Assembly: GCF_900093605.1 (NCBI RefSeq)
Contig: NZ_FLYE01000006.1
Span: forward strand, 1 to 64,000
Length of the DNA stretch: 64,000 nucleotides
Reading direction: 5' to 3'
From: Candidatus Terasakiella magnetica
GTDB taxonomy: Bacteria > Pseudomonadota > Alphaproteobacteria > Rhodospirillales > Terasakiellaceae
This document shows positions 18,956 to 32,669 of the stretch, in pieces. The translations under genes were made by a program, and so were the position numbers. A model generated the notes under the pieces. The model did not search any database, was not told where the DNA came from, and saw only the letters and a list, made by a program, of their open reading frames with translations. Within the stretch, counting starts at the first letter, position 1. Every line of letters begins with the position of its first letter.

Positions 18956-18972
18956 GATAGTTTTAGATTCAG

Positions 18973-19000: not shown

Positions 19001-19018
19001 TTGCCCTAAAAACCGCTT

Positions 19019-19104
19019 GCACAATAATAACTATTTTACTGAAAAACCAACTAAGTTATTGTTATAAATGCATATTTACAAAACAAAACACAGTGTCCGG
19101 GTGA
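19019..19104 (+). promoter_or_regulatory. Conserved 88-bp upstream element, copy 1
   Basis: It begins GCACAATAA, has TTATTGTT in the middle and ends CACAGTGTCCGGGTGA. This copy is 86 bases because of small spacing changes. It lies 64 bases before the start at 19169. ACAATAA and TTATTGT form a perfect inverted pair here. Confidence 0.85.
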
Positions 19105-19128
19105 GAAAAAAATTCCAAGTTTAGTATC

Positions 19129-19162
19129 TTCCTTTCAGTTCAAACAAACAACCCGAAAGGAA
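19129..19162 (+). promoter_or_regulatory. Hairpin hiding the ribosome site of the gene at 19169
   Basis: TTCCTTTC at 19129-19136 is exactly complementary to GAAAGGAA at 19155-19162, which is the ribosome site. The equivalent leader of the next module (20137-20170) differs in the stem but again pairs TTCCT and CAG with CTG and AGGAA. The conserved arrangement suggests translation control. Confidence 0.55.
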
Positions 19163-19168
19163 TACATT

Positions 19169-19555
19169 ATGACTACTGAACTAACTGTAAAAGCTGTAAT
19201 CAAAACTATTCAGAAAAACACAATTACGCAAACTTTCACTATCTCAGATGAAGAGTTCTTTAAAGGCTGGCAGAGCGGGGAAAAGACACGCATCAAAAAT
19301 TTCGTTTCTTTGGAACTTGGCAAAGTCGCGGATTTGATCGCTGCAGGTAAGAATGATATCGCACGCAACATTGCTTTTGCGAAAGCCCTGTTTTTAATCG
19401 GAAAAGTAAGAAGCACTTGGACTAGACGCAAAGAACTCGATATTCATTTTACGGCAGACCTGTCAGATTTTTTCAATGACCAGTTCAGTTTGGAAATTGA
19501 AACGAAATCAAAATCTCGCAGATACACCCTCGGTCAATACTCAACGTTTGATTGA
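19169..19555 (+). CDS. Accessory protein of unknown function, family with upstream 88-bp element
   Basis: A 128-residue soluble protein that I do not recognise. A beta-strand-rich start (TVKAVIKTIQKN, TFTISDEEFF) is followed by a helical middle (about 45-90) and a final strand pair (ELDIHFTADL). The EEFFKGWQSGEK segment and the helix-then-strand order resemble proteins at 21936, 31174 and 32041, so I place it in one paralogous set. The ATG has a GAAAGGAA site; this site is complementary to TTCCTTTC at 19129-19136, so its translation may be controlled by a hairpin. A terminator follows. Confidence 0.7.
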   Translation: MTTELTVKAVIKTIQKNTITQTFTISDEEFFKGWQSGEKTRIKNFVSLELGKVADLIAAGKNDIARNIAFAKALFLIGKVRSTWTRRKELDIHFTADLSDFFNDQFSLEIETKSKSRRYTLGQYSTFD

Positions 19556-19618
19556 CCCTCTAAACAAGCTGCGTAATCACCATACGGAGACAGGCAATGC
19601 CTATATCCTGGTCTTATT

Positions 19619-19653
19619 AAGAAGCACACATTTCGATGTGGGCTTCTTTTTTT
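19619..19653 (+). terminator. Terminator with TTCG loop
   Basis: GAAGC-A-CACAT, loop TTCG, ATGTG-G-GCTTC, then a run of T. It ends the first accessory module. Confidence 0.85.
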
Positions 19654-19722
19654 GCCTTACAATACCTTCCTTTCAGTTCTAATAATTCATGATAGGGTTT
19701 CTAAAATTTAGGCACTTACAGA

Positions 19723-19950
19723 TCAGAGAACACCACTCACAAACGCATTTACAAAAACCGTGATTCCGCAATTACCACACGCTACTGGCACTACAGGAAG
19801 AACCTGTCCATCATTGCCGCCATGGTATTCGTTCAGTTCATAAATGGTATCAGAAACATTCCATTTCTTAGAACCACACATTTGACAGGTGTTATCGCCC
19901 CATTTGTCTTGTAAGTGAGCAATCATCTGGTTGGCATCAAACTTTGACAT
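19723..19950 (-). CDS. Small zinc-ribbon protein
   Basis: A 75-residue protein with two Cys pairs (CQMCGSKKW near residue 22 and CGNCG near 59), giving a zinc ribbon, and a VLPVVPVACGNCG stretch that I have seen in small phage and island proteins of unknown function. It is on the minus strand, opposite to the surrounding accessory modules, and lacks the 88-bp element. The function is not known; nucleic-acid or protein binding is plausible. Confidence 0.65.
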   Translation of the reverse strand: MSKFDANQMIAHLQDKWGDNTCQMCGSKKWNVSDTIYELNEYHGGNDGQVLPVVPVACGNCGITVFVNAFVSGVL

Positions 19951-20024
19951 ATCATCAAACTCATTCTGTTGTTCTGTTTATTAAGACTACAGGACCCAAT
20001 GAGTTAAAGCACGAAAAACTATCT

Positions 20025-20112
20025 GCACAATAATAGCTATTTTTAAATCAATATCACATACAAGTTGCTGTTTTGATTGCTTTTTAAGAAACAAATCACA
20101 GTATCCGGGTGA
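20025..20112 (+). promoter_or_regulatory. Conserved 88-bp upstream element, copy 2
   Basis: GCACAATAA start, weaker middle box (TTGCTGTT) and CACAGTATCCGGGTGA end, with one change in the last box. It lies 61 bases before the start at 20174. Confidence 0.85.
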
Positions 20113-20173
20113 AATATTCAAAGCAGATTCAGTACCTTCCTAACAGTTCAAACAAGCATTCTGAAAGGAAATT

Positions 20174-20512
20174 ATGATGCTTACAAAAACAAGGAAACAC
20201 ACATTGGTAGTAGTGAACCACCCGTTCAAAACAGTAATGGAATACGTAGCGATTTCCCTACCATTATCCACTCTGCATATTGCGAGACAAACGAGCCTTC
20301 TAAATAAACAAAGCTCAGAAGACTTGGTCAGAAAACTCCACGACCTCTTCACTAGAAAGCTGACCCCAGAAGACGACAGAGTTTTGTCAGCAGTTCTACC
20401 ACTCTTGGAAGAGCATAACGCTTACAAGCAGCTTAACGAGAATGAAGCATATGACTTGGTAGTGCTTGAGTTATTAGAAAACAGCTGCGTTGTCAAAGTC
20501 GATACCCTGTAA
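20174..20512 (+). CDS. Accessory protein of unknown function with upstream 88-bp element
   Basis: A 112-residue protein that I do not recognise. The N-terminal strand-rich part is followed by helices (LVRKLHDLFTRKLTPEDDRVL) and a final strand (YDLVVLELLENSCVV). The helix-then-DLV-strand order is like that in the protein at 21936. The second ATG at 20177 is an equally possible start. The leader again pairs its ribosome site with an upstream segment (20137-20146 with 20161-20170). The next 88-bp element starts 9 bases after its stop, with no clear terminator between. Confidence 0.65.
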   Translation: MMLTKTRKHTLVVVNHPFKTVMEYVAISLPLSTLHIARQTSLLNKQSSEDLVRKLHDLFTRKLTPEDDRVLSAVLPLLEEHNAYKQLNENEAYDLVVLELLENSCVVKVDTL

Positions 20513-20521
20513 TTACCGACT

Positions 20522-20609
20522 GCACAATAACCAATACTTTTCAATCTAATTCAAGACTAAGTGATTGTTTATATATAATACATAGAAACCAATCACAGTG
20601 TCCGGGAGT
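20522..20609 (+). promoter_or_regulatory. Conserved 88-bp upstream element, copy 3
   Basis: GCACAATAA start, TGATTGTT middle, CACAGTGTCCGGGAGT end. It lies 57 bases before the start at 20667. An alternative GTG frame at 20598 would start inside this element, which argues against that start. Confidence 0.85.
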
Positions 20610-20666
20610 TCAAATCCAATTTCATTTTATAAAATGTTTACATCATTAATTGCAAAGGAGATGCAT

Positions 20667-20891
20667 ATGGATACTGCCCTGAACAACACCCCTAACCTTC
20701 TTGAAGGCTTCCTTACACAGGAACAGCTTTCAGAGCTTCTAGGGCTGTCTGTTCGAACACTTCAAAGAAAACACGCTGAACGCATTGGCCCACCACGCAT
20801 CAAGCTTGGTTCCAAGATCTTTTACAAGATTGAAAGCGTTCAAAAGTGGCTGTCTGACCTAGAACGTGAACCCGTTCTCCGCAGACGATAA
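20667..20891 (+). CDS. AlpA/excisionase-type HTH protein
   Basis: Start set at 20667 because AAAGGAG lies 7 bases upstream. The 74-residue protein has a MerR-like HTH_17 domain (LTQEQLSELLGLSVRTLQRK) and a wing (PPRIKLGSKIFYKIESVQKWL). Such proteins act as excisionases or activators on mobile elements. It is the first gene of a two-gene module with the ADP-ribosyltransferase-like gene 53 bases downstream, and it could control the element or the module set. Confidence 0.8.
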   Translation: MDTALNNTPNLLEGFLTQEQLSELLGLSVRTLQRKHAERIGPPRIKLGSKIFYKIESVQKWLSDLEREPVLRRR

Positions 20892-20944
20892 CTAATATTT
20901 TTTCCGGCAATCCTGCCATAACTTCCAAAACGAAAGGAATTCAA

Positions 20945-21628
20945 ATGGAAGAATATATTATCAATACCCAGCAACTAATTGCTGCTAACGCCAAAGGCGA
21001 TTTGCTTGAGCCTGAAAGCTACCAGACAATTGCGGGCCTAATCCCTACGATTAAAGCTGCAATCAATGACTACAATGATGAAGAGCAAGTTGCGGCGGTA
21101 CAAAATTTACTTCAACCATTGGAGTCAATCTTCATTCAAAACCTTTGGACATATGAATATCTTGATAAAGCAGTAAGGCTTCCTGATGAGGTGTATTGGC
21201 ATAAACTTCTATACTTTTATATCGAAGCTGAAAACCTTGGCACAGACAATAAAAGACGTGACCAACTACTTCGCAGCTTATTTGTTGAGCGACAAAAGAT
21301 GAAAGCAAAAAAGAAACGAAAATTGATGATGTACACAACAGACCGTCAACATTTCTCACAGCTTCCGGAATCCTTCACTATTTATCGAGGACAGGATCTG
21401 TTTTTTGAACTTGGCTGGTCTTGGACACTAGCCCCTCAAGTCGCAAAGTTTTTTGCATCAAGGTTTAATCAATCTGAATATGAAGAACCCGTAATCTTGG
21501 AAGCTATGGTTTCAAAAAAGGATGTGATCGCTTTCAGCAACATCCGAGATGAATTTGAAGTCATCATTGACCCCTTAAGCATCACGAAATATACAGCCTC
21601 TGATTTGGAAGTATATAAAACAGCATAA
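20945..21628 (+). CDS. ADP-ribosyltransferase-like protein
   Basis: A 227-residue protein. The N-terminal 130 residues are helical with no recognised domain. The C-terminal third has the pattern of Arg-Ser-Glu ADP-ribosyltransferases: YRG (Arg near residue 149), a GWSWTLAPQVAKFFA segment that corresponds to the STS box and following helix, and DEFEVIID with Glu203 and Glu205 as the ExE motif. It may modify a host or phage protein with ADP-ribose from NAD. The assignment rests on short motifs only. It shares a transcript with the AlpA-type gene upstream, and a terminator follows. Confidence 0.6.
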   Translation: MEEYIINTQQLIAANAKGDLLEPESYQTIAGLIPTIKAAINDYNDEEQVAAVQNLLQPLESIFIQNLWTYEYLDKAVRLPDEVYWHKLLYFYIEAENLGTDNKRRDQLLRSLFVERQKMKAKKKRKLMMYTTDRQHFSQLPESFTIYRGQDLFFELGWSWTLAPQVAKFFASRFNQSEYEEPVILEAMVSKKDVIAFSNIRDEFEVIIDPLSITKYTASDLEVYKTA

Positions 21629-21664
21629 GGATGAAAGCTATGCCTATAGCCGACATACCATGAA

Positions 21665-21694
21665 AGCCAGCCATTCACTTGAGCTGGCTTTTTT
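21665..21694 (+). terminator. Terminator of the ADP-ribosyltransferase-like module
   Basis: AGCCAGC and GCTGGCT form the stem, followed by T residues. The sequence GACATACCATGAAA before the stem recurs before the terminator at 22351. Confidence 0.85.
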
Positions 21695-21779
21695 GTTCAT
21701 TGGTAAAATTAATTGAAGTGGAATTTTAAATTCCGAACCAATGTTTTTTTCACATTACAAAAAATACGCGAAACAGCTT

Positions 21780-21867
21780 GCACAAAAACCCGTATTTTTA
21801 ACTAAATATAACATTTAACTCATTGTTATAAAAAGAAAATACATAAACAATCACAGTGTCCGGATGA
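21780..21867 (+). promoter_or_regulatory. Conserved 88-bp upstream element, copy 4
   Basis: GCACAAAAA start (one change), TCATTGTT middle, CACAGTGTCCGGATGA end. It lies 68 bases before the start at 21936. Confidence 0.85.
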
Positions 21868-21935
21868 AATAATTCGATCAATTCAAATACTATATTCTCA
21901 TTGTTAAATCTTTAGGATATAGAAAGGACATATCC

Positions 21936-22316
21936 ATGAAACACACATTTACTCCAGCAACTGAAACTGTAGCAACATTTATTGAATGCGATAAAGTTGT
22001 TATCTCAGCTCGTATTTCTGAAAAGCACTTCAGCCATAAGCAAAAAAAATCCCTGGCAAGCCTCTTGGGTGGTTTTAATCAAGCTGAATTAAGAGCTAAG
22101 TTGGTGAATCTATTGACCGCCCCTGACATCACAACTAATTCCAAACTGATTGAAGATGCCAAGAGATTTGCGGTTGCTTATCTTGAAAACACATTCAAGG
22201 CAAAGCAGGCTTACTTGAACAAGGATACACATGACCTAGTTATTCAGATTAGCAAAAGAAACGGTAATCCAGAATGTCATACATTCATCCGAAAAAAGCT
22301 TGCTGAAGCAGCATAA
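21936..22316 (+). CDS. Accessory protein of unknown function with upstream 88-bp element
   Basis: A 126-residue protein that I do not recognise. It has a strand (KVVISARISEKHF), then FSHKQKKSLASLL, a helical stretch to about residue 100, and a last strand THDLVIQISK. The FS-x-KQ/KS segment recurs at 31174, 32041 and near the end of the protein at 33147, and the strand-helix-strand order at 19169. It is the clearest small member of the proposed family. A GAAAGGA site precedes the ATG. The stop is followed by a repeated 3' segment and a terminator. Confidence 0.7.
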   Translation: MKHTFTPATETVATFIECDKVVISARISEKHFSHKQKKSLASLLGGFNQAELRAKLVNLLTAPDITTNSKLIEDAKRFAVAYLENTFKAKQAYLNKDTHDLVIQISKRNGNPECHTFIRKKLAEAA

Positions 22317-22350
22317 GGTTCCAAACAATGTCTTCTGACATACCATGAAA

Positions 22351-22381
22351 AGCCAGCCATTAATTTGAGCTGGCTTTTTTT
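22351..22381 (+). terminator. Terminator of the module at 21936
   Basis: AGCCAGC/GCTGGCT stem and a T run. The stem and the GACATACCATGAAA before it are shared with the terminator at 21665. Confidence 0.85.
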
Positions 22382-22471
22382 ATGATCTGTAATTTCCCTG
22401 CAGAATCTTGACTTAAAATTTTAATGTAATTCAAACAATTCACAGACTACCTCCCTTAGCTAATAACCTCT

Positions 22472-22559
22472 GCACAATAACACATATTTTTCAAATCATT
22501 TTTGGCATAAGTAATTGTTTTACTTGAATAATACAAAACAAATCACAGTGTCCGGGTGA
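22472..22559 (+). promoter_or_regulatory. Conserved 88-bp upstream element, copy 5
   Basis: GCACAATAA start, TAATTGTT middle, CACAGTGTCCGGGTGA end. It lies 58 bases before the start at 22618. Confidence 0.85.
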
Positions 22560-22617
22560 ACAAATCGAGGCTCATTTAGTATTATATCTTCATTATTAAT
22601 TATTAAGGAGATAACAA

Positions 22618-23409
22618 ATGACTAAAGAAACAGAACAAGTTGCTTACTATGTATTTGATGCAAAAAAACAAGCTATGCGTCGCATCTGGGTTCCACTAGA
22701 AGCTGTTACTGAGACAATTAAAGCACAAAAGGCCTTGGGCCTCCTACCATACAATACTGAAGCTAATGCTATCGAAATGCTGCTGAAAAGCACAAAGGGT
22801 AAAGACCATCGTACCCACACTGAATTAGCTACTGATTGCTTAAACCTTCTTGCTCATCAAAACTTGCTTGATATTGCAGTTGAAAAGTTTGAAGACCACT
22901 TTGCTATATTTGAGGTTCTGAATCTTGGTCGTAGAAAAACAGCTAAAGTTCAATTTGTGCCTTACTCTCTATATTCCCCTTCTCACGATGTTGAAGGCTT
23001 GGACGATAGTCAGCAATTTAATCCTAACACCATCTTACTTTACAGAGGGGTACGCCACATCATCAACAATTTCATTGATGTTGGAAAGCCCACTTACCAT
23101 GAAAGAAAGAAACACGTTCGTAAGTTTAAAAAGAGTTTTGGCATCAGTAAACAAAATGAGTTCGAAGCCAAAATGCTTCAAATTCTAAGAGCTTCAAATG
23201 GACCATTAAACCACAATGACCATTTATTTCTCACTCTGCTGACCAAACTGTACGTACAGATTATGGGTTTAGGTAAAGAGGCCTACGTCAATCGTTTTAC
23301 GCATAACTGTGTTATTGAAATTGATGATACAGAGCCTGCAAACACATCCTTTGAAGTCAGGCTCGATTATAGAAGCCCAACTTATAAACATGCTCAGAAA
23401 GCTGCTTAA
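22618..23409 (+). CDS. Accessory protein of unknown function with upstream 88-bp element, possibly two-domain
   Basis: A 263-residue protein that I do not recognise. It seems to hold two versions of the same strand-helix-strand unit. The first covers about residues 1-115 (helical NAIEMLLKS to LNLLAHQNLL, then a FAIFEVLNLG strand). The second covers about 155-255 (SFGISKQNEFEAKMLQIL, LFLTLLTKLYVQIM, then THNCVIEIDD). The first half is separated from the second by a YRGV segment. An AAGGAG site precedes the ATG. It is the largest plus-strand member of the accessory set, and a terminator follows. Confidence 0.7.
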   Translation: MTKETEQVAYYVFDAKKQAMRRIWVPLEAVTETIKAQKALGLLPYNTEANAIEMLLKSTKGKDHRTHTELATDCLNLLAHQNLLDIAVEKFEDHFAIFEVLNLGRRKTAKVQFVPYSLYSPSHDVEGLDDSQQFNPNTILLYRGVRHIINNFIDVGKPTYHERKKHVRKFKKSFGISKQNEFEAKMLQILRASNGPLNHNDHLFLTLLTKLYVQIMGLGKEAYVNRFTHNCVIEIDDTEPANTSFEVRLDYRSPTYKHAQKAA

Positions 23410-23440
23410 AGGCTAAGACAATGTCATATGGCATAACATT

Positions 23441-23473
23441 AAGAAGTCGGTAGGAAACTATCGACTTCTTTTA
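23441..23473 (+). terminator. Terminator of the module at 22618
   Basis: AAGAAGTCGgTAG, loop GAAA, CTAtCGACTTCTTTTA. It may also serve the endonuclease gene on the other strand, whose stop lies at its edge. Confidence 0.8.
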
Positions 23474-24172
23474 CTTTATATAGGGGTTTGCATTCCCCTG
23501 AACTGCTTTAATACGGTTATTCCGCTCAACCTCATAAGCAGAAACAGGATCTGATTTATCCCAGGCCTTGAGCAATTTCTTCTGCTGCTTAGATAACTTC
23601 AGACCATACTGTTCTGCCATATAGAAATAGATACGTGCAATATCACCTCTGACCTCGGGAGCTGGTTCAGCTTTCTTGGCCTTGAAGTTCACTTCAAAAT
23701 CACACTTACCGTATTTACGTGGTTCACCTTCAAGCATTGTGAAACGATAATTTGAACGGTCACCATTCAATTCCCCAATTGCGGGAACCAGATTATGCAA
23801 GTCTGCTTCCATCTTTGAAAACTCAGGATCTTTTTTACAGGCCTTACGACCTCCATCCTGCCAGCACTGGCGTTGATGCCCAAACCAGTAAGCAGGCATT
23901 ACGTGTTCCCATTCAATCCTGGTTGCTCGGGAATTAGGCTTTCCTTTTTTAGTGACAGGCTTTCTGGGTTCATAACCACAAGATTCAGCTACAGGGATAA
24001 GCTTTTTGCCTTTGTAAGCATAATCACACCCGCAATAAAATGTGGTTTCCATACCTTTGTGAATTTTAACAGCCAGCTTCTTAGCCTTGGAAAATGACTT
24101 GGGATGCTCTGCCATGGCAAACGTTGGCAAGACAAGCATTGCTGCAAGGGCATATTTTAACATCTCAGGCAT
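23471..24172 (-). CDS. endA: Endonuclease I family nuclease, exported
   Basis: A 233-residue protein with a signal peptide (about 1-21, ending AMA-E), so it probably acts in the periplasm or outside. It matches the bacterial endonuclease I family of beta-beta-alpha-metal nucleases: RIEWEHVMPAYWFG contains the catalytic His, and DLHNLVPAIGELNGDRSNYRF holds the metal-binding Asn. Cys residues at CGCDY and CWQDGGRKACK fit disulfides as in the Vvn-type enzyme. Such genes are common on conjugative and mobilizable elements. A minus-strand terminator upstream separates it from rep. Confidence 0.9.
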   Translation of the reverse strand: MPEMLKYALAAMLVLPTFAMAEHPKSFSKAKKLAVKIHKGMETTFYCGCDYAYKGKKLIPVAESCGYEPRKPVTKKGKPNSRATRIEWEHVMPAYWFGHQRQCWQDGGRKACKKDPEFSKMEADLHNLVPAIGELNGDRSNYRFTMLEGEPRKYGKCDFEVNFKAKKAEPAPEVRGDIARIYFYMAEQYGLKLSKQQKKLLKAWDKSDPVSAYEVERNNRIKAVQGNANPYIK

Positions 24173-24229
24173 CCTTTTTTGTAATCTGATAGGAAGATAG
24201 CCGAAAGCCCATTTACCTGTCCATTGGGC

Positions 24230-24258
24230 AAAAAAAGGGGTGATGAAAAATCACCACC
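24230..24258 (-). terminator. Minus-strand terminator between rep and endA
   Basis: On the minus strand, GGTGAT and ATCACC form the stem and a run of T follows CC. It could end the rep transcript after it passes through the repeats. Confidence 0.7.
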
Positions 24259-24508
24259 CAAGTCCGCCGAGAAACTACGTCGTACTCAGAACCCCAATAT
24301 GGAGAACTGATATTGATAATATATGAAACTGAATTATGGTCTTCACCCATATGAGACAAAACCTAATTTAAATTGCTTTGCAGGTAAAATAAATTGAAAC
24401 ACTTTGCACGGAGTTAGTGCAGAACCCAACTTTTGCGTTGCAGATTACCCTACAGGTGTTTCAGTTCCTGAATTAATTGATGCACAGAAATGAAGGTCCA
24501 CATCTTTT

Positions 24509-24794
24509 CGTAAACACCATCATGTCGTTTACAGTAATGTTTTAAGAAATGTAAACAGCCCAAAACCGTTTACATTCCTGTGCCTTCAGGTGTTGTCATC
24601 ACTTTTGACAAAAACCGTAAACGTTTTCTCTTTGGAACTGTTTACAGCAAAAAACGTTTACATCAGCACTGACAGAACATTTGTCATCAAATTGGGCTTA
24701 AAACTGTAAACGTGCAATCTCAGATATTGTTTACAATTTTATTCGTAAACACTACCGGAATTTGTTCAAAGTTCGCTGTTTACGAATGTTTACC
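24509..24794. repeat. Iteron-like repeats, candidate replication origin
   Basis: Twelve copies of an 8-base motif TGTTTACG or its complement (allowing one change), at about 24509, 24526, 24550, 24567, 24616, 24639, 24655, 24705, 24728, 24744, 24777 and 24787. They lie in both orientations immediately downstream of the rep stop. A Rep_3 initiator normally binds iterons, so this is the best origin candidate, although such repeats more often lie upstream of rep. Confidence 0.7.
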
Positions 24795-24802
24795 GTTCAA
24801 TT

Positions 24803-26047
24803 TTACCCCTGAGTTGGAATTCCTGTATCCCCTTCTGGTTCTTCAAAACCATTCGCTTCCATCCATTTATCATATTCTTCAGCAGTCATATCATGAAGGG
24901 AATTAGGGTCTTTAAATTGAGCCCTGATATTCTCCTCAGTTCCAAGTTCCTTATATAATCGTGAAAGAAACGGAAAATCTGTATTCTTTGTCGAATATGT
25001 TTCAAATTCCTCTTCAAAGAAGCGAATACAGGCTGCTTCAGGATCTTTATCTAACAGTTTTGCAGCATTTGGGCTGAGATAGAACTCATCCTTTGCTTGC
25101 TTCCACAATCGCCTCAAAAGTGGAAGAGTGACACCATCAAGGTTAATCCTTAACAGTCGACTTAGGTATTTCATTGTCTGAAAGCTAATCGGGTCTTTAG
25201 CAAATGACTGCCTGCCTTCAATTCGCTTTTCTCGAAAATCCTTATTCTTTAGATTTTGCGTTACCTTAAACTTCACGCGAACAGTCTTGTTTCCTGTTTT
25301 CTCGTAATCAATGTCATTTTCAGCCACATAGATATTGCTATTATTACTAATATCTTTGACCGCATCTTTGATCTTTTTCTTAAAATTATTCGTCTGGCCC
25401 CACGACGAAACAGGCCAATTTATTAGCTGCTTCAATACATCAATGTCATATGTCGATTTGCCCTTGAAGTCTGTCAGGTCAGAAACAAGGTTGGGATATA
25501 GCAACATTGCGTATTTCGTCTTAAACTTTGGAATGGCATTAAACGATAGATATGCGTAATAGCCATTGGACAAAATAATATCGCCAATTGTTGATGGGAT
25601 TTCCACTCTGAGAGTCTTAGTATCCCTTAGATGTTCCCAATTTCCAATCAACGGATGTTGACCAGGAACCTCCTCATATTTTCGCTTGTTCAGAATTTTA
25701 TATTCAACCTGAACTTCAGCCAGCTCATCAAGAGAACTCTCCAATTCTTCGAGCCTGTCAAAATTGCAATGCTCCATCACCTTGGGAACTGGGATCAGAT
25801 TGCTATCAAGCTTTGCAGTTTCATCACCGTTTTGCTCATAGAGATCTATCAAGATTGAATAAATCGTATCATAGAGCCTTAGGCTTCTTTTCGTGAGATT
25901 GCCTTCAACCACAACTTTTCGCATTAAACGCATCTGATGTTTCACTGAAGGTTTTGATTTAGCATTCCAAAGTTCACCACGTATTTTCTTTGCAGCAGAT
26001 CTGTTAAAAGGTTTTGGGACTTCATTCGTTCCCACAGTATCATTCAT
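24803..26047 (-). CDS. rep: Rep_3-type replication initiator
   Basis: A 414-residue plasmid initiator. The winged-helix pair of the Rep_3/RepB family appears to cover about residues 50-290 (RSLRLYDTIYSILIDL early; the GNKTVRVKFKVTQ strand later), with a KYAMLLYPNLVSDL segment typical of the family. A long acidic C-terminal tail (about 330-414) is less conserved. It should bind the iterons next to its stop and open the origin. Direct 20-base repeats 58 bases before its start may be its operator. In an integrated element it may allow a replicating phase after excision. Confidence 0.75.
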   Translation of the reverse strand: MNDTVGTNEVPKPFNRSAAKKIRGELWNAKSKPSVKHQMRLMRKVVVEGNLTKRSLRLYDTIYSILIDLYEQNGDETAKLDSNLIPVPKVMEHCNFDRLEELESSLDELAEVQVEYKILNKRKYEEVPGQHPLIGNWEHLRDTKTLRVEIPSTIGDIILSNGYYAYLSFNAIPKFKTKYAMLLYPNLVSDLTDFKGKSTYDIDVLKQLINWPVSSWGQTNNFKKKIKDAVKDISNNSNIYVAENDIDYEKTGNKTVRVKFKVTQNLKNKDFREKRIEGRQSFAKDPISFQTMKYLSRLLRINLDGVTLPLLRRLWKQAKDEFYLSPNAAKLLDKDPEAACIRFFEEEFETYSTKNTDFPFLSRLYKELGTEENIRAQFKDPNSLHDMTAEEYDKWMEANGFEEPEGDTGIPTQG

Positions 26048-26104
26048 TTTTACAATCTCTTGAATCTGCTATAATTGATGATGAATATATAGCACAAAGA
26101 TTCA

Positions 26105-26145
26105 ATCTGGAAAACATATCATTTGATCTGGAAAACATATCATTT
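26105..26145. repeat. Two exact 20-base direct repeats before rep
   Basis: ATCTGGAAAACATATCATTT occurs at 26105-26124 and 26126-26145, one base apart. They lie 58 bases upstream of the rep start on its promoter side, so an operator or Rep binding site is likely. Confidence 0.8.
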
Positions 26146-26863
26146 CTCAATTTCTGAAAGAGAGTTAAGTATCTATTTTATTTAGATAATCTCATTTTTT
26201 ACCGGAACATCATAAAAACCTATACTGAGAACTATACTATTATTTCTGCTGACATATGTATATTTGTAGGCAATCCACTCAATTCCATATTTTCAGTAAC
26301 TTAATATTTAAGTTAACCAAGCAATTGCTTTCAGCAAATCCACATTTGTTGGATTAAGTTAAACCGTGTGGGTTTTAACCGTAACAAGAATGGGATTTAT
26401 TCTTTGGATTTTCAAAAGCCAAATAAATCGTTTCTCAGTAGGAAAGCTGGCTTACATATACCAATACCCTATAATCAACAAAACTATGCTCTATAGTAGG
26501 TTTCTGATAAGCCTGATTGTATTTCAAAGGACTAAGGCGTTAGCCACTAATCAAACAAATAGTTAGCTCTTATTGAGCAATGGCGTTAGCCCTAAATGTT
26601 GGCAAACATAAATTTGAGCTTTAGCTCAAATCAATAGGCGATGAGCCCAGCATTACGCGAAGATGCAAAACTCAAGATGCAAACTTCATTTCTGTAAACG
26701 ACATACAGGTTACCAGAACAACCATACACACAGTTTTACCGGATCTATTTTCCGGAAATTACCGGAACATACTTAATCTGAATTAGGTAAATGATGGCTA
26801 CGCCGTTACAATGTATTATTATCATACACCTTTGATTTTATTAACTTTTTTGCATTTTACCTA
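26146..26863. other. Gene-free stretch between rep and the small RNA, with scattered repeats
   Basis: No gene is convincing. TTACCGGAACAT occurs at 26199-26210 and 26759-26770. GGCGTTAGCC occurs at 26536-26545 and 26582-26591. A perfect hairpin (ATTTGAGCT, TT, AGCTCAAAT) lies at 26612-26631. These could be further initiator or regulator sites. A short plus-strand frame at 26366-26566 lacks a start signal and is rejected. Confidence 0.45.
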
Positions 26864-26892
26864 TTGACAACAGAGACTAATTATGAGAATAT
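26864..26892 (+). promoter_or_regulatory. Promoter of the candidate small RNA
   Basis: TTGACA at 26864-26869 and a GAATAT-type -10 at 26887-26892 with 17 bases between. The predicted start falls at the first base of the closing stem of the RNA. Confidence 0.6.
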
Positions 26893-26899
26893 ACAATCA

Positions 26900-27056
26900 A
26901 CAACGCGAGTTCACTAAGTGCATAGCTTAGTAAAACAATTTCAGAAACCTATAAGGTATTAAAAGAGTTAATCTTTTGAGTTATTTTAGAAATCTATAAG
27001 ATATTAAAAGACAAAATATCTCGCGTTGAAAGAAAGACCCGAAAGGGTCTTTTTTT
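26900..27056 (+). ncRNA. Candidate structured small RNA (about 157 nt)
   Basis: The 5' end CAACGCGAG (26901-26909) is complementary to CTCGCGTTG (27020-27028) and closes the structure. Inside are small hairpins ACTAAG/CTTAGT (26913-26931), AAAAGA/TCTTTT and AGATATT/AATATCT. Two direct repeats 45 bases apart (from 26943 and 26988) agree over 24 bases except at two positions, which are complementary partners in a short hairpin: C and G become T and A. A strong terminator (AAAGACCC, GAAA, GGGTCTTT) follows. It has a promoter and no open frame. Role unknown; control of rep or of the XRE gene is plausible from position. Confidence 0.7.
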
Positions 27057-27208
27057 ATGCTTTCAGTTTATTCACAAAAAACTATTTACAATGTTCTATT
27101 GAAATTTATCTGAACATTGTCACTCGGCTTATGTAAACAATGATTGCATAGCCAAAACATATTCGCTTAAATGAAAAAAAATCAGATCATAAATTGAAGA
27201 GACACAAA

Positions 27209-27664
27209 TTGGCTAAGAAAGATAAACCGCTTCCAGGAACCCGAGGTAGTGACACTCCCCACCCTGTTGACGTTCACGTCGGACAACGTATTAAGCTTCG
27301 TAGAACCCTTGTTGGAATGACACAAGGTCAACTGGGCGAAAGCATTGGATTGACATTCCAACAGGTGCAGAAATATGAACGAGGCTTCAACCGTGTTTCT
27401 GCAAGCAAGTTATGGTTACTTTCAAACATCCTTGATGTACAAATTTCCTATTTCTTTGATGAAATGCCTGAGGCCACAAAACAAACCTTCCCTGGATACG
27501 AAACTGATAACTCTGAATCTGATGTACCTGAAGAAGAATTGACCTTGCACAGACGGCAAACCCTTGAGTTAGTTCGTGCCTTTTCTCAAGTAACAGACCA
27601 GAATGTCAGAACACAGCTAAACAAAATGGTTAAGGCAATGGCTGGCATTACTGACGAAGAATAA
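27209..27664 (+). CDS. XRE-family transcriptional regulator
   Basis: An XRE HTH (VGQRIKLRRTLVGMTQGQLGESIGLTFQQVQKYERGFNRVS) followed by a region common in short alphaproteobacterial regulators, ending in LVRAFSQVTD. No ATG is available; of two TTG codons I choose 27209, which has an AGAG site, over 27194, which has none. The protein is about 151 residues. It probably represses its own or neighbouring element genes. It sits just after the candidate small RNA. Confidence 0.85.
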   Translation: MAKKDKPLPGTRGSDTPHPVDVHVGQRIKLRRTLVGMTQGQLGESIGLTFQQVQKYERGFNRVSASKLWLLSNILDVQISYFFDEMPEATKQTFPGYETDNSESDVPEEELTLHRRQTLELVRAFSQVTDQNVRTQLNKMVKAMAGITDEE

Positions 27665-27731
27665 CACCAAGTTTATTTACAAAGCGAGAACACAATAGAT
27701 TAACAACTCTTTGATTTAGTTGAGTTTTTAC

Positions 27732-27760
27732 TTGACTTTAAAAGCAATTTAAGATAATAT
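27732..27760 (+). promoter_or_regulatory. Promoter of the HIRAN gene
   Basis: TTGACT at 27732-27737, 17 bases, TAATAT at 27755-27760. It precedes a good AAGGAG/GAGGAG leader of the gene at 27810. Confidence 0.7.
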
Positions 27761-27809
27761 ATTCAGATTATTAACAATCATAAGGAGATGATTAAGAGGA
27801 GTATAAAAG

Positions 27810-28376
27810 ATGTTATGTTTAACAGTGAAGGAGATTTCTGAAGATCTAAAAATATCAAAACCGACAGTCAAAAACAGATTAAAAGACTGTTCTAAACATT
27901 ACGTTCAACGTGAATTTGAAACAAATTATTATAATTATGACCGAACCTGCACAGCTTACGATTTCAAAGATATCGTAACCAAGGTCTTTAAAGATTCAGC
28001 TCAAAACAAGTTCTTTGAAAAGTACCTTGGCAAATACCTTGAGCAACAAACAGCAGGAATAAGACTTTCAAACGAATTGAAAATTGCAGGAACTCACGTA
28101 ATCCCAACCGAAATCAGTTTGGGTACGCATATTTATCTTGTTCCAGAACCTGATAATCCACACGACAGTAAAGCCCTTAAGGTCTTCAACGCCATTGATA
28201 ATAACCACCTTGGCTATGTCTACAGGGAAGACCAGGAAATTATTTTCAACAGCCCAACGTTCAAGAAACAGCAGAAGTTATTTGGTGTCATCACTGACAC
28301 AGAAAGCTATGGCTTTGCCTCAAGGGAAGACGGCTGGATTGGAGGTCAGAAGAAATATTGCAAATGGTTCATTTAA
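27810..28376 (+). CDS. HTH plus HIRAN domain protein
   Basis: A 188-residue protein. The N-terminus has a small helix-turn-helix-like segment (LTVKEISEDLKISKPTVKNRL). Residues about 88-185 match a HIRAN domain (GTHIYLVPEPDNPHDSKALKVF, NNHLGYVYRED), which in Rad5/HLTF binds 3' DNA ends. Here it may bind damaged or replicating DNA. It is in the same region as HU and umuDC, which gives a DNA-maintenance context. It is followed by an unknown gene 54 bases downstream. Confidence 0.75.
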   Translation: MLCLTVKEISEDLKISKPTVKNRLKDCSKHYVQREFETNYYNYDRTCTAYDFKDIVTKVFKDSAQNKFFEKYLGKYLEQQTAGIRLSNELKIAGTHVIPTEISLGTHIYLVPEPDNPHDSKALKVFNAIDNNHLGYVYREDQEIIFNSPTFKKQQKLFGVITDTESYGFASREDGWIGGQKKYCKWFI

Positions 28377-28430
28377 GAACCTATACAATCAACAAATTGT
28401 TTTTAATTAATTATTTTAGGAGATTTTATT

Positions 28431-28856
28431 ATGAATACAGACACTCAAACCCAAATTAAGAAACACGCAGACAACATTTTGTATGAATTTTCAGGCAAAG
28501 TTCATCTCAACGAAAAATATGGCGATACTGCACAAGGTTGGGCTGACTTTGTCACAGAAGACCTATTTGAACATCAATCTCTTTCAGATCTTGATTATGA
28601 TGCTCAAGATTTTGAAGAGGAGGTTTTCAAATTCCTTACAGAATACTTTAAGGCTTTACCTCATTTTGAGATTGTCAGCCTGACTCAATTTGCAAAAGGT
28701 TGTTCTGACTTCAGCAGGGCTGCCATTGAAAAGCTTTTGGACAATAAAGATATCCCTGAAGAATATTATATTTATCAAGGGAAGCGAACTTATATCAATC
28801 CACGTTTAAGTTTGTGGCTAGACCAGGTATATCCTTTGAAACAGCTTGCTTCCTGA
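28431..28856 (+). CDS. Hypothetical protein (141 residues)
   Basis: A 141-residue acidic protein that I do not recognise; a GTGAATTTA-type frame is clean throughout. The middle is helical and rich in Asp/Glu and aromatic residues (DFEEEVFKFLTEYFKALP), and the C-terminus has EEYYIYQGKRTYINPRL, which resembles a winged-helix wing. It has an AGGAG site before the ATG. It is cotranscribed with the HIRAN gene and ends at a strong terminator. Confidence 0.65.
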   Translation: MNTDTQTQIKKHADNILYEFSGKVHLNEKYGDTAQGWADFVTEDLFEHQSLSDLDYDAQDFEEEVFKFLTEYFKALPHFEIVSLTQFAKGCSDFSRAAIEKLLDNKDIPEEYYIYQGKRTYINPRLSLWLDQVYPLKQLAS

Positions 28857-28861
28857 CAAAG

Positions 28862-28899
28862 AAAAACACCCACCATGGTAAAACGGTGGGTGTTATTTT
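28862..28899. terminator. Bidirectional terminator between the unknown gene and HU
   Basis: AACACCCACC and GGTGGGTGTT form a 10-bp stem, with T-rich and A-rich edges so it can act in both directions for the convergent genes. Confidence 0.85.
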
Positions 28900-28919
28900 A
28901 TGTAAACGATATCGAGGGC

Positions 28920-29192
28920 TTATGCGTTTACAGCATCTTTCAAACCTTTACCCGCTTTAAACTTAGGTTGTTTTGAAGCAGGGATTTGGATCTCTTCACC
29001 TGTGCGTGGGTTACGACCTGTAGAAGCTTTACGATCTGCCACTGAGAATGTACCAAAACCTACAAGGCGAACATCATCACCAGATTTCATAGCATATGTA
29101 ATAGCCTCAAAAACACCTTCTACAGCTTTTGTAGCATCAGCTTTAGTTAGGCCAGATTCAGCAACAGCATTCACCAGTTCAGTTTTATTCAT
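28920..29192 (-). CDS. hup: HU-family DNA-binding protein
   Basis: A 90-residue HU protein of full length with the hallmark ELVNAVAESGLTKADATKAV helices, the GFGTFSVADRKASTGRNPRTGEEIQIPA arm and a KPKFKAGKGLKDAV-type end. It bends and compacts DNA and may aid element replication or recombination. It is a single gene on the minus strand, between the HIRAN operon and umuDC. Confidence 0.95.
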   Translation of the reverse strand: MNKTELVNAVAESGLTKADATKAVEGVFEAITYAMKSGDDVRLVGFGTFSVADRKASTGRNPRTGEEIQIPASKQPKFKAGKGLKDAVNA

Positions 29193-29384
29193 AATTTCAT
29201 TCCTATTTGAAAATTCATAAACGATTTTGCTATTTCACCGAAATTGACCACAAAGTCAAACAATACAAGCTATTTTAAAGCCCATAGAAGGTATGTTTTG
29301 TATTTTCTAAGGATAAAGCATAGGTCTAAATTGGCTACAAAAGCCTCATTTGATGTTTCATTTCACATTGACATATCAACCTAT

Positions 29385-29399
29385 GTTCTTCATATGTTC
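29385..29399 (+). promoter_or_regulatory. LexA box (GTTC-N7-GTTC)
   Basis: GTTC at 29385-29388 and GTTC at 29396-29399 with exactly 7 bases between. This is the alphaproteobacterial LexA site. It overlaps the -10 region of a promoter with TTGACA at 29368-29373. Confidence 0.85.
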
Positions 29400-29403
29400 C
29401 TTT

Positions 29404-29817
29404 ATGGAGATATATAAACCTGACATCACATCACAATGCCCACTGCCCATTTTTCTGTTTGCTGTAAGTGCTGGTTTCCCAAGCCCCGCAGAGGACTTCA
29501 CAGAAAAAACTTTGGATTTAAATGATTTCATAGAACACCCAGCCAGTACTTTTTTTGTACGAGCAGAAGGTGATTCAATGATTGGTGCTGGGATATTCGA
29601 TGGTGATTTGCTGATTGTTGATAAAAGCATCACCCCAAAGCATAATTCAATTGTCATAGCTTCCATCCACGGTGACCTGACAATGAAACGGCTCATCAAA
29701 AAAGGCGATAAATGGTTATTAAAACCAGAAAACCCTGATTACCCAATTTTAGAACTTGAAGAACAATCTCAAATTTGGGGTGTTGTTAAGAACTGTATGC
29801 GAGACCTTGAGAAATGA
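29404..29817 (+). CDS. umuD: UmuD-type polymerase accessory protein
   Basis: Start set at 29404, because the frame upstream overlaps the promoter and LexA box; this gives 137 residues, close to the family length. The self-cleavage site Ala23-Gly24 (VSAGFP), the catalytic Ser58 (EGDSMI) and Lys95 (TMKRL) match UmuD. The leader is very short or absent if the promoter call is right. It overlaps umuC by 4 bases. After RecA-stimulated cleavage it should form the processivity partner of UmuC. Confidence 0.92.
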   Translation: MEIYKPDITSQCPLPIFLFAVSAGFPSPAEDFTEKTLDLNDFIEHPASTFFVRAEGDSMIGAGIFDGDLLIVDKSITPKHNSIVIASIHGDLTMKRLIKKGDKWLLKPENPDYPILELEEQSQIWGVVKNCMRDLEK

Positions 29818-31079
29818 CTATCTTCGCTATAGTTGACTGCAATAACTTCTATGCTTCTTGTGAACGAGTTTTTGAACCTCATCTCGAAGGTAAGCCCGTA
29901 GTTGTGCTTTCTAACAATGATGGTTGTGTTATTGCCAGGAGCAATGAAGCAAAAGCATTGGGAATTGGAATGGGCGAAGCCTATTTCAAAATCAAACCCC
30001 AGATCCAAAAACTAGGGCTGGAGGTTCGTTCATCAAACTATGCTCTATATGGTGATATGTCTAATCGGGTGGCGTCTGTCCTATCTACATTCTCGCCAAA
30101 CATTGAAGTTTATTCAATCGATGAATGTTTCCTGGACCTAACAGGCTTTGAGCATCTTGACCTCACTACATATGCTCAGGAAATACGACATACGGTCAAA
30201 CAATATACTGGTATCCCTGTTGCTCTTGGAATTGCACCAACAAAGACATTAGCAAAAATAGCTAACAGACTTGCCAAAAAATCGACTAAAGCCAATGGTG
30301 TACTTGATTTAACCAACCACCCTGACTGGATACCATTAGCTCTTCAAAAAACTGAAGTGGGAGATGTCTGGGGCATAGGCAGACGTTATTCCAAGTGGCT
30401 TATTGCAAACAATGTGCATACCGCATTTGATTTGGCTCATTCTGAAGATGACTGGATACGAAAGAAGATGGGTGTTGTAGGTTTAAAGACTGTTCACGAG
30501 CTTCGTGGCATCAGTTGTGTGGAATTAGAACATCACGCACCTGACAAGCAAACAACCGCTGTTACACGCTCTTTTGGGAAGATGCTTGATTCCTTAGATG
30601 ACCTTGAAGAAGCCATCAAATCTTTTGCTTCCAGAGCTGCTGAAAAGATCAGAACATCAGACCTTGTTACTAATCAGGTTTCCGTCTTTGTTCGAACAAA
30701 CCCATTTCGTGAAGACCTTGAGCAATATACCAACTCCATTACAGTTGGCCTCACCACATACACCAATGACACCCGAGAGATATTACAAGCCTGCTTATCT
30801 GGCTTGAGAAGAATTTTCAAAGATGGTCTTCAATATAAGAAAGCTGGCATTATCCTTCTTGATTTAATGAAATCAGACTCAGCACCTAAAACCCTATTTG
30901 ATATAAATCAAGCTGTTGATGACCAGTTAATGAAATCCCTAGACAAGATTAATGCTCGCTTTGGGTCTGGAACAATTGCCTTGGGGCAGTTAAAGAAATC
31001 CAGATCCTGGTATATGACCCAAAACCATAAATCTCCCAGCTACACAACAAAATGGGATGAGCTTGTCAGAGTCAGATAA
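29814..31079 (+). CDS. umuC: UmuC-type Y-family DNA polymerase
   Basis: A 421-residue Y-family polymerase with the palm start VDCNNFYASCERVFEP, the catalytic SIDECFLDL, and a helix-hairpin-helix (GDVWGIGRRYSKWL). The C-terminal DUF4113-like end (ARFGSGTIALG) is typical of UmuC. With UmuD it makes an SOS-inducible translesion polymerase. Such umuDC copies are common on mobilizable elements, where they may raise tolerance and mutation after transfer. Confidence 0.95.
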   Translation: MTIFAIVDCNNFYASCERVFEPHLEGKPVVVLSNNDGCVIARSNEAKALGIGMGEAYFKIKPQIQKLGLEVRSSNYALYGDMSNRVASVLSTFSPNIEVYSIDECFLDLTGFEHLDLTTYAQEIRHTVKQYTGIPVALGIAPTKTLAKIANRLAKKSTKANGVLDLTNHPDWIPLALQKTEVGDVWGIGRRYSKWLIANNVHTAFDLAHSEDDWIRKKMGVVGLKTVHELRGISCVELEHHAPDKQTTAVTRSFGKMLDSLDDLEEAIKSFASRAAEKIRTSDLVTNQVSVFVRTNPFREDLEQYTNSITVGLTTYTNDTREILQACLSGLRRIFKDGLQYKKAGIILLDLMKSDSAPKTLFDINQAVDDQLMKSLDKINARFGSGTIALGQLKKSRSWYMTQNHKSPSYTTKWDELVRVR

Positions 31080-31103
31080 TCTCTAAATCAGAACCAACCA
31101 GAC

Positions 31104-31136
31104 AAAAAAGAAGCCGACAGAATTAACTATCAGCTT
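31104..31136 (-). terminator. Minus-strand terminator of the module at 31174
   Basis: On the minus strand an 11-bp stem (GAAGCTGATAG with CTGTCGGCTTC, with G-U pairs) and a run of T. The TGACATACC ahead of it recurs before the terminators of plus-strand modules at 21665 and 22351. Confidence 0.85.
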
Positions 31137-31173
31137 CTCTACGGTATGTCAGACAGGGACATTTTCCAGATCC

Positions 31174-31947
31174 TTATGCAGCTTCCGTAAGGTATGCAGG
31201 CACTCTATCCAGAACACTTACCTTAACACCATCCCTCTTACCGAGGTCAGTATTTAGGTCAATAACCAGTCTCTTAGTCCAGGGGTTTTTTGCCGCCTTT
31301 TGAGTGACCTTACTGCTTTCAACTAAAGCAAGAACGCACATAAGCAAACGATTAGCCTGCTCCTTATCACTGTTGTTACAGTTCAATTCCCACAATCGTA
31401 GAATTTCAGCTTTCAACTGCTCTTTTGACAAGTTACCCAAACGGTCAGATGCCTTATCATTAGATTTTTTACTAAAGAAGACATCACTGTCCACAGTAGC
31501 TTCAAACTCAGGGAAACCTCGACCATCAAAAGTCAGATTAACTTGAAGGTAGCCATTTGGAACATCAGAAATCAGCTTTTGGCCTGGAGCACTGACGTAC
31601 AAATCTAATGGAACACTTTTACATACAGCTTTCCAATTATCACCAACACGATTTAGCTCAACAGCGATAAAGTTCTCATCCGCTTTATCTACAGCAGGAA
31701 CAAGAAGTCTTTTACTTTCCAGCAGCTTGATGCAACATACTTTCAAAGTATTCGCTACCGCTTCAGCTGGCATAAACTGAGCTGAAAACAAAGCTGATAC
31801 AATATGGTCAGCTAGGCGTTCAGCATTCAAAAACGCGGGTAAAAGTTCTTCAGACGCACTTAGGTTAGCAATCTGGACTGTAGGGACTGCAATCATAGCA
31901 GTTCCACCAGTATCTTTATTATTTAACGCAAAAGTCAAATATTGCAT
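31174..31947 (-). CDS. Accessory protein of unknown function, two-domain
   Basis: A 257-residue protein that I do not recognise. It looks like two strand-helix-strand units. The first is about 20-125 (ERLADHIVSALFSAQF, then ENFIAVELNRVG). The second is about 150-245 (VDSDVFFSKKSNDKASDRL, KEQLKAEILRLWELN, RLLMCVLALVESSKV, TKRLVIDLN). The second unit aligns well by eye with the protein at 21936. An AAGGAG site precedes the ATG. It is the second gene after the 88-bp element copy 6. Confidence 0.7.
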   Translation of the reverse strand: MQYLTFALNNKDTGGTAMIAVPTVQIANLSASEELLPAFLNAERLADHIVSALFSAQFMPAEAVANTLKVCCIKLLESKRLLVPAVDKADENFIAVELNRVGDNWKAVCKSVPLDLYVSAPGQKLISDVPNGYLQVNLTFDGRGFPEFEATVDSDVFFSKKSNDKASDRLGNLSKEQLKAEILRLWELNCNNSDKEQANRLLMCVLALVESSKVTQKAAKNPWTKRLVIDLNTDLGKRDGVKVSVLDRVPAYLTEAA

Positions 31948-32040
31948 ATTTAATCTCCTTTTCTATGCACATAGCCCCATAAAGCAGGAATGGACTGGGG
32001 CATTTAAAAAAAATGTCCATCCCTGTTTGAAACAGTCTGG

Positions 32041-32481
32041 TTAAGCTGCTTCTTCGATACGCACTCCTTTCTTGAATTGGTTTGAACCTTCCTTGAAGCT
32101 CACCACTGGCAACACTTCAACAGCCTCATCCTCATTGTCTTCATCGAAGAATGAGAAAGTGAAATCGTACTGCAATGGTGCAGCTTGATATCCAGCTTCA
32201 ACCTTGACCGTGAACTGTTCAGCTTTAGCCATTACAGTTTCATAAAGGTCACAGGCTTCCAAAACAGCCACAAGACATTCAAAGAACTCATCTTGGTTCT
32301 CGAAGAACACTGAAGTACGAGAACTGACCAGGCTGAATGTATTATGAAGAGCATCACCTGCTGTTTCACAGTTACGAGGCAACTTGCCTTTGAGCTGTTT
32401 CACCTCTTCCAGGGATTTCTTTGAAAAGTGTGTGCCTCCGTTGTTTCCGCTGGTTGCAATGGCCTTAAATAATTTAGTCAT
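32041..32481 (-). CDS. Accessory protein of unknown function with upstream 88-bp element
   Basis: Start set at 32481, where a GGAG site lies 8 bases upstream; a start at 32496 is open. With 32481, the distance from the upstream element is 61 bases, as in the other modules. The 146-residue protein has THFSKKSLEEVKQL, a helical middle (FFECLVAVLEACDLYETV) and a final strand (QFTVKVEAG, YDFTFSFFD), so it fits the proposed family. The acidic DEDNEDEAVEV stretch is a feature of this member. It is cotranscribed with the gene at 31174. Confidence 0.7.
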   Translation of the reverse strand: MTKLFKAIATSGNNGGTHFSKKSLEEVKQLKGKLPRNCETAGDALHNTFSLVSSRTSVFFENQDEFFECLVAVLEACDLYETVMAKAEQFTVKVEAGYQAAPLQYDFTFSFFDEDNEDEAVEVLPVVSFKEGSNQFKKGVRIEEAA

Positions 32482-32542
32482 AGTGTCAAACTCCATCTTT
32501 GTTTTCGATGAGTTCAGTTATACTCGACCAAACGAAAAACCT

Positions 32543-32630
32543 GCACCCGGACACTGTGATCAGTTTTGCAAAAACATTATATATCAATAACTTAATTGCA
32601 TAATCAGTGAAAAAATAGCTATTATTGTGC
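32543..32630 (-). promoter_or_regulatory. Conserved 88-bp upstream element, copy 6
   Basis: On the minus strand it reads GCACAATAA, TTATTGAT in the middle and CACAGTGTCCGGGTGC at the end. It has the same spacing as the five plus-strand copies although it lies 10 kb away in inverted orientation. Confidence 0.85.
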
Positions 32631-32669
32631 AGCCCATTTCTGGAGCGTTTTAAAATGAAATTGAGACGA

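Follow-up and report, generated by a model that had tools for sequence, protein, structure and literature searches.

Conserved regulatory units that recur before several variable genes of one mobile element have been described in plasmids and in phages, and two such systems come closest to the locus presented here: the EGeRS2 promoters of p576 and other clade II pLS20-family Bacillus plasmids (PMC8708921) and the ESAS of cluster K mycobacteriophages, for which role and regulator are unclear (PMC3203893, PMC12699233, PMC11373665). The locus lies in the first 64,000 nucleotides of contig NZ_FLYE01000006.1 of Candidatus Terasakiella magnetica (assembly GCF_900093605.1), the stretch of DNA that was analysed and that is called the window below. 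In it, an element of about 88 bp with three conserved boxes (A, B, and C) stands six times before genes. It is of a known kind, since repeated operator-promoter units occur in p576-type plasmids and in cluster K phages, as described in the four publications just cited. The element probably represents a sigma-70-type promoter under the control of a protein bound beside the -35, accompanied by two upstream inverted sites; this protein is somewhat more likely an activator, encoded by the mobile element that carries the six copies (the carrier), than a repressor.

The resemblance to EGeRS2 concerns the general plan (PMC8708921). In both cases, several operons of variable genes in a mobile element are each preceded by a copy of one conserved unit, and one of the units precedes the gene of a DNA-binding protein. 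The EGeRS2 operator is located directly upstream of the -35; here, a conserved box, the putative operator, abuts and overlaps the predicted -35 in all six copies. The differences lie in the parts. The dual heptamer TTATCCCnnTTATCCC that forms the EGeRS2 operator was absent from the six aligned copies when these were read through, and EGeRS2 has the gene of a ribbon-helix-helix repressor under one unit and strong promoters, whereas an HTH_17 gene and a poor -35 are found here. A GC-rich box, two further upstream sites, and other proteins additionally set the present element apart.

Like ESAS (about 46–50 bp), which are repeated before non-structural genes, the element is a conserved sequence with an inverted repeat and SigA-like -10 and -35 hexamers, here predicted (PMC3203893, PMC12699233, PMC11373665). 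ESAS, however, occur in phages and consist of 17-bp inverted repeats 4–14 bp apart with a 13-bp SAS, GGGATAGGAGCCC, at the start codon, and neither the repeats nor the SAS were seen on reading the six aligned copies through to the start codons. Promoters of the Frpo/ssi kind are likewise repeated before anti-defence and uncharacterized genes in conjugative DNA, but they act as folded single strands (PMC11541004), and such a fold was not seen here.

The initial annotation, which was made from the sequence alone, had stated that no promoter or riboswitch of this form was known. For promoters, this was too strong, as repeated operator-plus-promoter units before variable genes have been published (PMC8708921, PMC11373665); as to riboswitches, no Rfam family matched in the window at gathering score. 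What is new here is the signal, the three-site layout, and the gene set, and not the principle of repeated operator-promoter units. A literature search for the box string CACAGTGTCCGG returned only two papers, both on human taste, and further literature searches found no direct parallel.

Six Copies of a Three-Box Element

Six copies had been proposed in the initial annotation, and a search of the window for the last box, CACAGTGTCCGGGTGA, with up to three mismatches recovered all of them at their places (six observed against 0.24 expected; six were reached in 0 of 100 shuffles). Counted from GCACAATAA through the last base of box C, five of the six are 88 bp long as originally described, and copy 1 has 86 bp, its A–B spacer being three bases shorter and its B–C spacer one base longer than in the others. 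The alignment of the six copies comprises 90 columns with the leading T included. The distance to the start codon, previously given as 46–68 bp, amounts to 57–68 bp when the sixth gene is started at 32481, an ATG with a Shine-Dalgarno sequence (assigned by eye); the value of 46 is obtained only with a start at 32496.

Box A turned out to be fuller than earlier described, reading TGCACAATA-N5-TATTTTT and containing the dyad AATA-N5-TATT. Box B is TAAGTNATTGTT, and box C, together with the less strictly kept bases preceding it, is AAACNAATCACAGTGTCCGGGTGA; boxes A and B form an inverted pair upstream of box C. Among the six copies, pairwise identity was 0.97 in the first box TGCACAATAA, 0.79 in box B, and 0.89 in box C, against 0.35, 0.36, and 0.26 expected from composition. 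The TATTTTT of box A reached 0.95, which is weak evidence because the motif is T-rich (0.71 expected), and AAACAAAT adjoining box C, with 0.72 against 0.59 expected, makes a weaker case. The two spacers, with 0.39 and 0.42 (0.33 and 0.36 expected), were close to chance, against 79–97% identity in boxes A, B, and C. The initial observation is confirmed. The copies therefore look old, with the boxes and the distances between them retained, and the kept boxes and the equal length in five of six fit sites that are read by proteins under a spacing constraint. Conservation extends past the 88 bp, as far as the -10 hexamer described below.

Two further places in the window carry parts of this pattern. 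A stray copy (87%) of the leader of copies 1 and 2 is present at 19663–19685, after the first gene and without boxes, and is perhaps the remnant of a seventh unit. A near match to the box A dyad was found at 29261–29277, about 70 bp upstream of an umuD-like frame, with 1.5 such matches expected by chance in the window.

Predicted Core Promoter

At exactly +36 from the start of box C, all six copies have a hexamer of the form TAnnnT, with the TA kept in six and the final T in five. When offsets from -130 to +79 were scanned across the six copies for a -10, +36 was the best with a mean of 3.2 bits (next 1.69), and random rotation of the +16 to +79 regions reached this score in 0 of 5000 trials. 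The offset also ranked first with copies 2, 4, and 6 alone and with copies 1, 3, and 4 alone. The best pair of -35 and -10 at a fixed offset, allowing spacers of 15–19 bp, was GTGAnn-18-TAnnnT (mean 4.46, compared to 2.08 for the next), which places a weak, predicted -35 in the tail of box C (GTGA). A CA dinucleotide is located at +47/+48 in five of the six copies and displaced one base downstream in copy 6. Relative to the start predicted from this -10, box C spans roughly -48 to -33. Sites for CRP, sigma-54, and other sigma factors were also weighed by eye, and none was retained. The features are compiled in Table 1.

Table 1. Coordinates in the window of the six copies, their predicted -10 hexamers, and associated genes and hairpins
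Feature	Position	Strand	Remarks
Copy 1 (boxes A, B, C; 86 bp + leading T)	19018..19104	+	precedes 128-aa gene 19169-19555
Copy 2	20024..20112	+	precedes 112-aa gene 20174-20512
Copy 3	20521..20609	+	precedes HTH_17 (AlpA-like) gene 20667-20891, then 227-aa gene 20945-21628
Copy 4	21779..21867	+	precedes 126-aa gene 21936-22316
Copy 5	22471..22559	+	precedes 263-aa gene 22618-23409
Copy 6 (inverted)	32543..32631	-	precedes 146-/151-aa gene 32041-32481/32496, then 257-aa gene 31174-31947
-10 TATCTT, copy 1	19125..19130	+	+36 from box C start; predicted start A 19137
-10 TACCTT, copy 2	20133..20138	+	predicted start A 20145
-10 TAAAAT, copy 3	20630..20635	+	predicted start A 20642
-10 TACTAT, copy 4	21888..21893	+	predicted start A 21900
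-10 TATTAT, copy 5	22580..22585	+	predicted start A 22592; also found by consensus scan
-10 TATAAC, copy 6	32517..32522	-	predicted start A 32509, one base later than in the others
HTH_17 (AlpA-like) protein, 74 aa	20667..20891	+	candidate regulator; family match
227-aa protein	20945..21628	+	second gene of copy 3; PHROG 4776 (unknown function), E 1.3e-23
126-aa orphan	21936..22316	+	behind copy 4; paralog of 263-aa and 257-aa proteins
263-aa orphan	22618..23409	+	behind copy 5; paralog of 126-aa and 257-aa proteins
257-aa orphan	31174..31947	-	second gene behind copy 6; paralog of 126-aa and 263-aa proteins
Terminator-like hairpin	18971..18996	+	just upstream of copy 1; hairpin scan
Terminator-like hairpin	32674..32699	-	just upstream of copy 6; hairpin scan
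Terminator-like hairpin	21663..21706	+	between copy 3 operon and copy 4; by eye, unreported by scan
Second copy (84%) of hairpin 21663..21706	22349..22392	+	between copy 4 gene and copy 5; by eye, unreported by scan
aa, amino acids.

Occurrence Within and Outside the Genome

For searches, a covariance model was built from the six copies, based on sequence only and without structure. In the window, the copies scored 68.9–79.3 bits and the next best place 9.9 bits. In the whole genome, the same six copies were returned, followed by noise (next 13.7 bits, E 0.27). The copies' own scores are high by construction because the copies built the model, and it is the gap to the next match that is informative. 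Within its own genome, the element is restricted to this contig.

Relatives were sought in 317 genomes of the order and 385 of the class, which are partly overlapping samples. In the order, 27 genomes other than its own gave partial matches at E up to 0.1, the best with 21.1 bits and none at full length; in the class, only the own genome was found at E up to 0.001. Inspection of the best 10 alignments from 19 partial-match loci showed mostly matches to box B and the AT-rich middle. A box-B-like string and its right flank are common to three genomes of a single other genus (loci L087, L090, and L092), perhaps an unrelated conserved site. Another locus (L096) has AATCACAGCGTCCGGGGG but lacks box A and a -10 at +36, and it sits at the start of an open frame.

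Pattern searches gave a similar picture. A strict two-box pattern was found 0 times in the genome_contigs collection and once in viral_contigs (L026), within a coding region and read as chance; a looser two-box pattern had 0 matches in the viral contigs, where the last box alone matched 15 stretches. In 3 of 36 loci (L031, L037, and L038), a first-box-like string occurs within 95 bases before a last-box-like one, which by eye was attributed to chance. Among 101 last-box-like places (up to four mismatches) examined in 92 loci outside the own genome, a single one (L014) had a first-box-like string (up to three mismatches) at the right distance, without a TAnnnT at +36. The last box alone was present with two mismatches in 137 of 199 relatives, with a reversed control also in many among the matches listed, and with three mismatches in 5 of 5 genomes of the genus, with control matches similar in number. 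A single box is thus uninformative. The DNA from 18900 to 23500 had 0 matches in phages and 0 in plasmids.

At the protein level, none of five queries was confirmed in viral_contigs, the 263-residue protein had 0 matches in phages, and a 495-residue protein had 0 in plasmids and 0 in genome_contigs. A profile of the three paralogous proteins described in the next section found only the own genome among the 385 of the class.

Genes Behind the Copies

The proteins of 126, 263, and 257 residues, encoded behind copies 4, 5, and 6, are paralogs. Among the 136 pairs that can be formed from 17 proteins of the region, their three pairs ranked at the top, and each score was reached by 0 of 300 shuffles; the score of the next-ranked pair was reached by 1 of 300. 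BLAST comparisons within the trio gave E values of 2.7e-5, 5.8e-4, and 0.004. When the 263-residue protein alone was searched against the whole genome, the matches to its paralogs were weaker (E 0.011 and 0.098). The profile did not place the 128-, 112-, and 151-residue proteins in this family (E 0.11 to 1). All three paralogs and the 151-residue protein end with -AA. AlphaFold2 models of the paralogs had a mean pLDDT of 42.3 and were set aside.

No Pfam or PHROGs family was found at E up to 0.001 for the 128-, 112-, 126-, 263-, 257-, and 146/151-residue proteins, and individual searches with the 128-, 112-, and 151-residue proteins covered these two databases. The 227-residue protein, for which no Pfam domain was found at E up to 1, carries what we take, by eye, to be ADP-ribosyltransferase-like motifs. 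The only product encoded directly behind a copy that matches a DNA-binding family is the AlpA-like protein. Its solved relatives are weak, with RdfS at E 0.055 and an AlpA-family protein at E 0.7. Copy 3, under which it lies, begins a few bases after the preceding gene.

Proposed Mechanism and Alternatives

The proposed mechanism builds on what the sequence establishes, namely the boxes, their near-fixed spacing, the -10, the restriction to one contig, the paralogy of three genes, and the mobilization genes of the carrier. Each copy would serve as regulatory region for a single transcription unit, and in favour of this, terminator-like hairpins precede copies 1 and 6 and, by eye, copies 4 and 5. 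The host's RNA polymerase, carrying the housekeeping sigma factor, would use the TAnnnT -10 and the poor -35 GTGAnn across a spacer of 18 bp, and transcription is predicted to begin about 7 bp past the -10, at the A of the CA, giving a leader of about 25–36 bases. A sequence-specific protein would bind the body of box C, AATCACAGTGTCCGG (about -51 to -37), and contact the polymerase there, touching the part of sigma that binds the -35. This protein would be an activator in a class II position and encoded by the carrier, with a repressor as the close second choice; the poor -35 is what favours an activator. First among the candidate regulators is the AlpA-like protein encoded behind copy 3, and the contig encodes two further candidates, an XRE protein (27194) and a HIRAN protein (27810). 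Sites A and B, inverted to each other and located at about -121 to -101 and about -84 to -73, may be occupied by a second protein or by additional molecules of the first. The outcome would be one switch for scattered, mostly orphan genes in an integrated mobilizable element, which are probably needed jointly upon induction of the element or its entry into a new cell. A comparable arrangement is known from the late promoters served by P2 Ogr and P4 Delta, where several promoters with a poor -35 depend on one activator encoded by the element; there, the activator site is near -55. In this scheme, we infer the start sites, protein binding, the sign and the purpose of regulation, and the identity of the regulator. 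The suggestion of the initial annotation that the copies reflect one shared regulator or a dedicated transcription signal stands as the best reading and is partly supported, sharpened by the fixed -10 and the weak -35.

Several points weigh against this activator model. The -10 pattern was first noticed in the conservation table and tested afterwards, so that its statistics are post hoc, the promoter hexamer frequencies used for scoring were entered by hand, and the six copies share descent, whereby their similarity overstates their independence. A generic sigma-70 consensus scan reported the predicted promoter in only one of the six copies (copy 5), and consensus sites were not in excess over shuffles, with 7 compared to 13.2 in the region of copies 1–5 and 5 compared to 4.5 in that of copy 6; the core promoter is for this reason considered weak. 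Hairpin counts were not clearly above those of shuffles, with 6 compared to 3.3 (standard deviation 1.9) in the first region and 2 compared to 1.8 in the second, and the scan reported none before copy 3. The AlpA-like protein, a candidate for binding box C, falls to a PHROG that bears the name excisionase and transcriptional regulator; it has distant matches in 14 of 60 genomes searched, its own included, and is thus of a common kind. Finally, no convincing relative of the element was found in the samples searched.

The poor -35 also bears on the most serious alternative, in which a repressor has its operator in box C, following the EGeRS2 example, and the promoters are shut while the element is resident and fire briefly on entry into a repressor-free cell. 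The published plan of an operator directly upstream of the -35, several units, and a DNA-binding gene under one of them (PMC8708921) speaks for it, and ArdC and umuDC-like genes in a mobilizable element fit a role in establishment. EGeRS2 promoters are, however, described as strong, no counterpart of the upstream sites A and B is described in the consulted parts of that publication (PMC8708921), and the EGeRS2 regulator is a ribbon-helix-helix protein, whereas the protein here is of the HTH_17 family, if the AlpA-like protein is the regulator. A repressor operator is regarded as less likely than an activator site, though as a close second. Much less is to be said for box B as the -35 (TTGTTW) with an ACAAAT-like hexamer by box C as the -10, which would let the RNA begin in box C and make the latter a 5' leader or a start-site operator. 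A hexamer starting with TTG stands 17 bp before the ACAAAT-like one in four of the six copies (3–6), and the mild conservation of AAACAAAT would agree with this, but the mean score of this pair was -0.86, whereas the pair built on the +36 hexamer had 4.46. A leader RNA is also disfavoured by the absence of Rfam matches at gathering score from the window and by a consensus fold in which 0 of 6 pairs changed on both sides, that is, without covariation; this arrangement is considered improbable.

The same consensus fold amounts to -0.51 kcal/mol, and 12 DNA folds (six copies, both strands) were no better than shuffles, with z from -1.15 to 1.12, so that no sign of RNA or single-strand structure was found. 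Single-strand promoters or priming sites like those of Frpo/ssi type in a conjugative leading region, which the inverted pair of A and B and the recurrence of the element upstream of orphan genes on mobilizable DNA would otherwise suggest, are very unlikely. The copies could also be mere remnants of duplicated gene units with an ordinary promoter as the only signal, considering the three paralogous proteins, one duplicated hairpin, and the similar leaders in copies 1 and 2. A recent duplication would have kept boxes and spacers alike and an old one without a signal neither, whereas the boxes are conserved and the spacers near chance; such an origin of the pattern is hardly to be expected.

Carrier Element and Neighbouring Genes

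The contig has 66,672 bases without end overlap and is read as holding an integrated mobilizable element. It carries a tyrosine integrase and umuDC-like genes, and at its right end are a MobC-like protein (63166–63582), a MobA/VirD2 relaxase (PF03432, E 2.9e-22), and ArdC. A Rep_3-like protein scored just under the Pfam cut-off (E 6.6e-4); it was found only in the own genome among 314 genomes of the order and had one match in plasmids, with 26.5% identity to an annotated replication initiation protein. Two or more elements may be combined in the carrier as a mosaic. A 147-base end of the integrase gene is duplicated (14683–14829 and 18809–18955, 90%) and flanks a stretch of 4 kb with a cyclase and, by eye, cytochrome-like genes, which looks as if inserted at the integrase end; no further long match to the duplicate was found in the genome.

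Other genes of the window were also recorded. Five consecutive proteins at 257–6308 have SBP_bac_3 matches, one of them below the Pfam cut-off, and one of the five is joined to a SpoIIE phosphatase domain. An 841-residue protein (35776–38301) has three stretches matching ADP-ribosylglycohydrolase, and a macro-domain protein at 46336 is encoded on the same contig as this and the 227-residue protein. A RecB-like nuclease of the TM0106 family fused to a helicase adjoins an exonuclease-domain protein at 42005–45421. The region 48973–62819 is a defence-like cluster with an 1837-residue DUF4011/helicase/MTES_1575 protein, type I restriction genes, a SIR2-domain protein with a ThsA-like score, and a sub-threshold HEPN match.

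Biological Implications

A conserved promoter that links orphan genes defines a regulon without protein homology, and the six natural variants of one promoter form a compact system for learning which bases a regulator reads. A more far-reaching idea, doubtful at present, is that of an entry regulon, in which one activator encoded by the carrier, acting through a site of about 23 bp at the -35 and two upstream inverted sites, would drive diverging counter-defence orphans in mostly insulated units of an ArdC-bearing mobilizable element. If this were true, the promoter would have stayed fixed while the proteins diverged beyond recognition, and it could serve to locate counter-defence genes that escape searches by protein. 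Should the gene set counter host defences, as in plasmids of the same plan, the element would offer a route to such genes.

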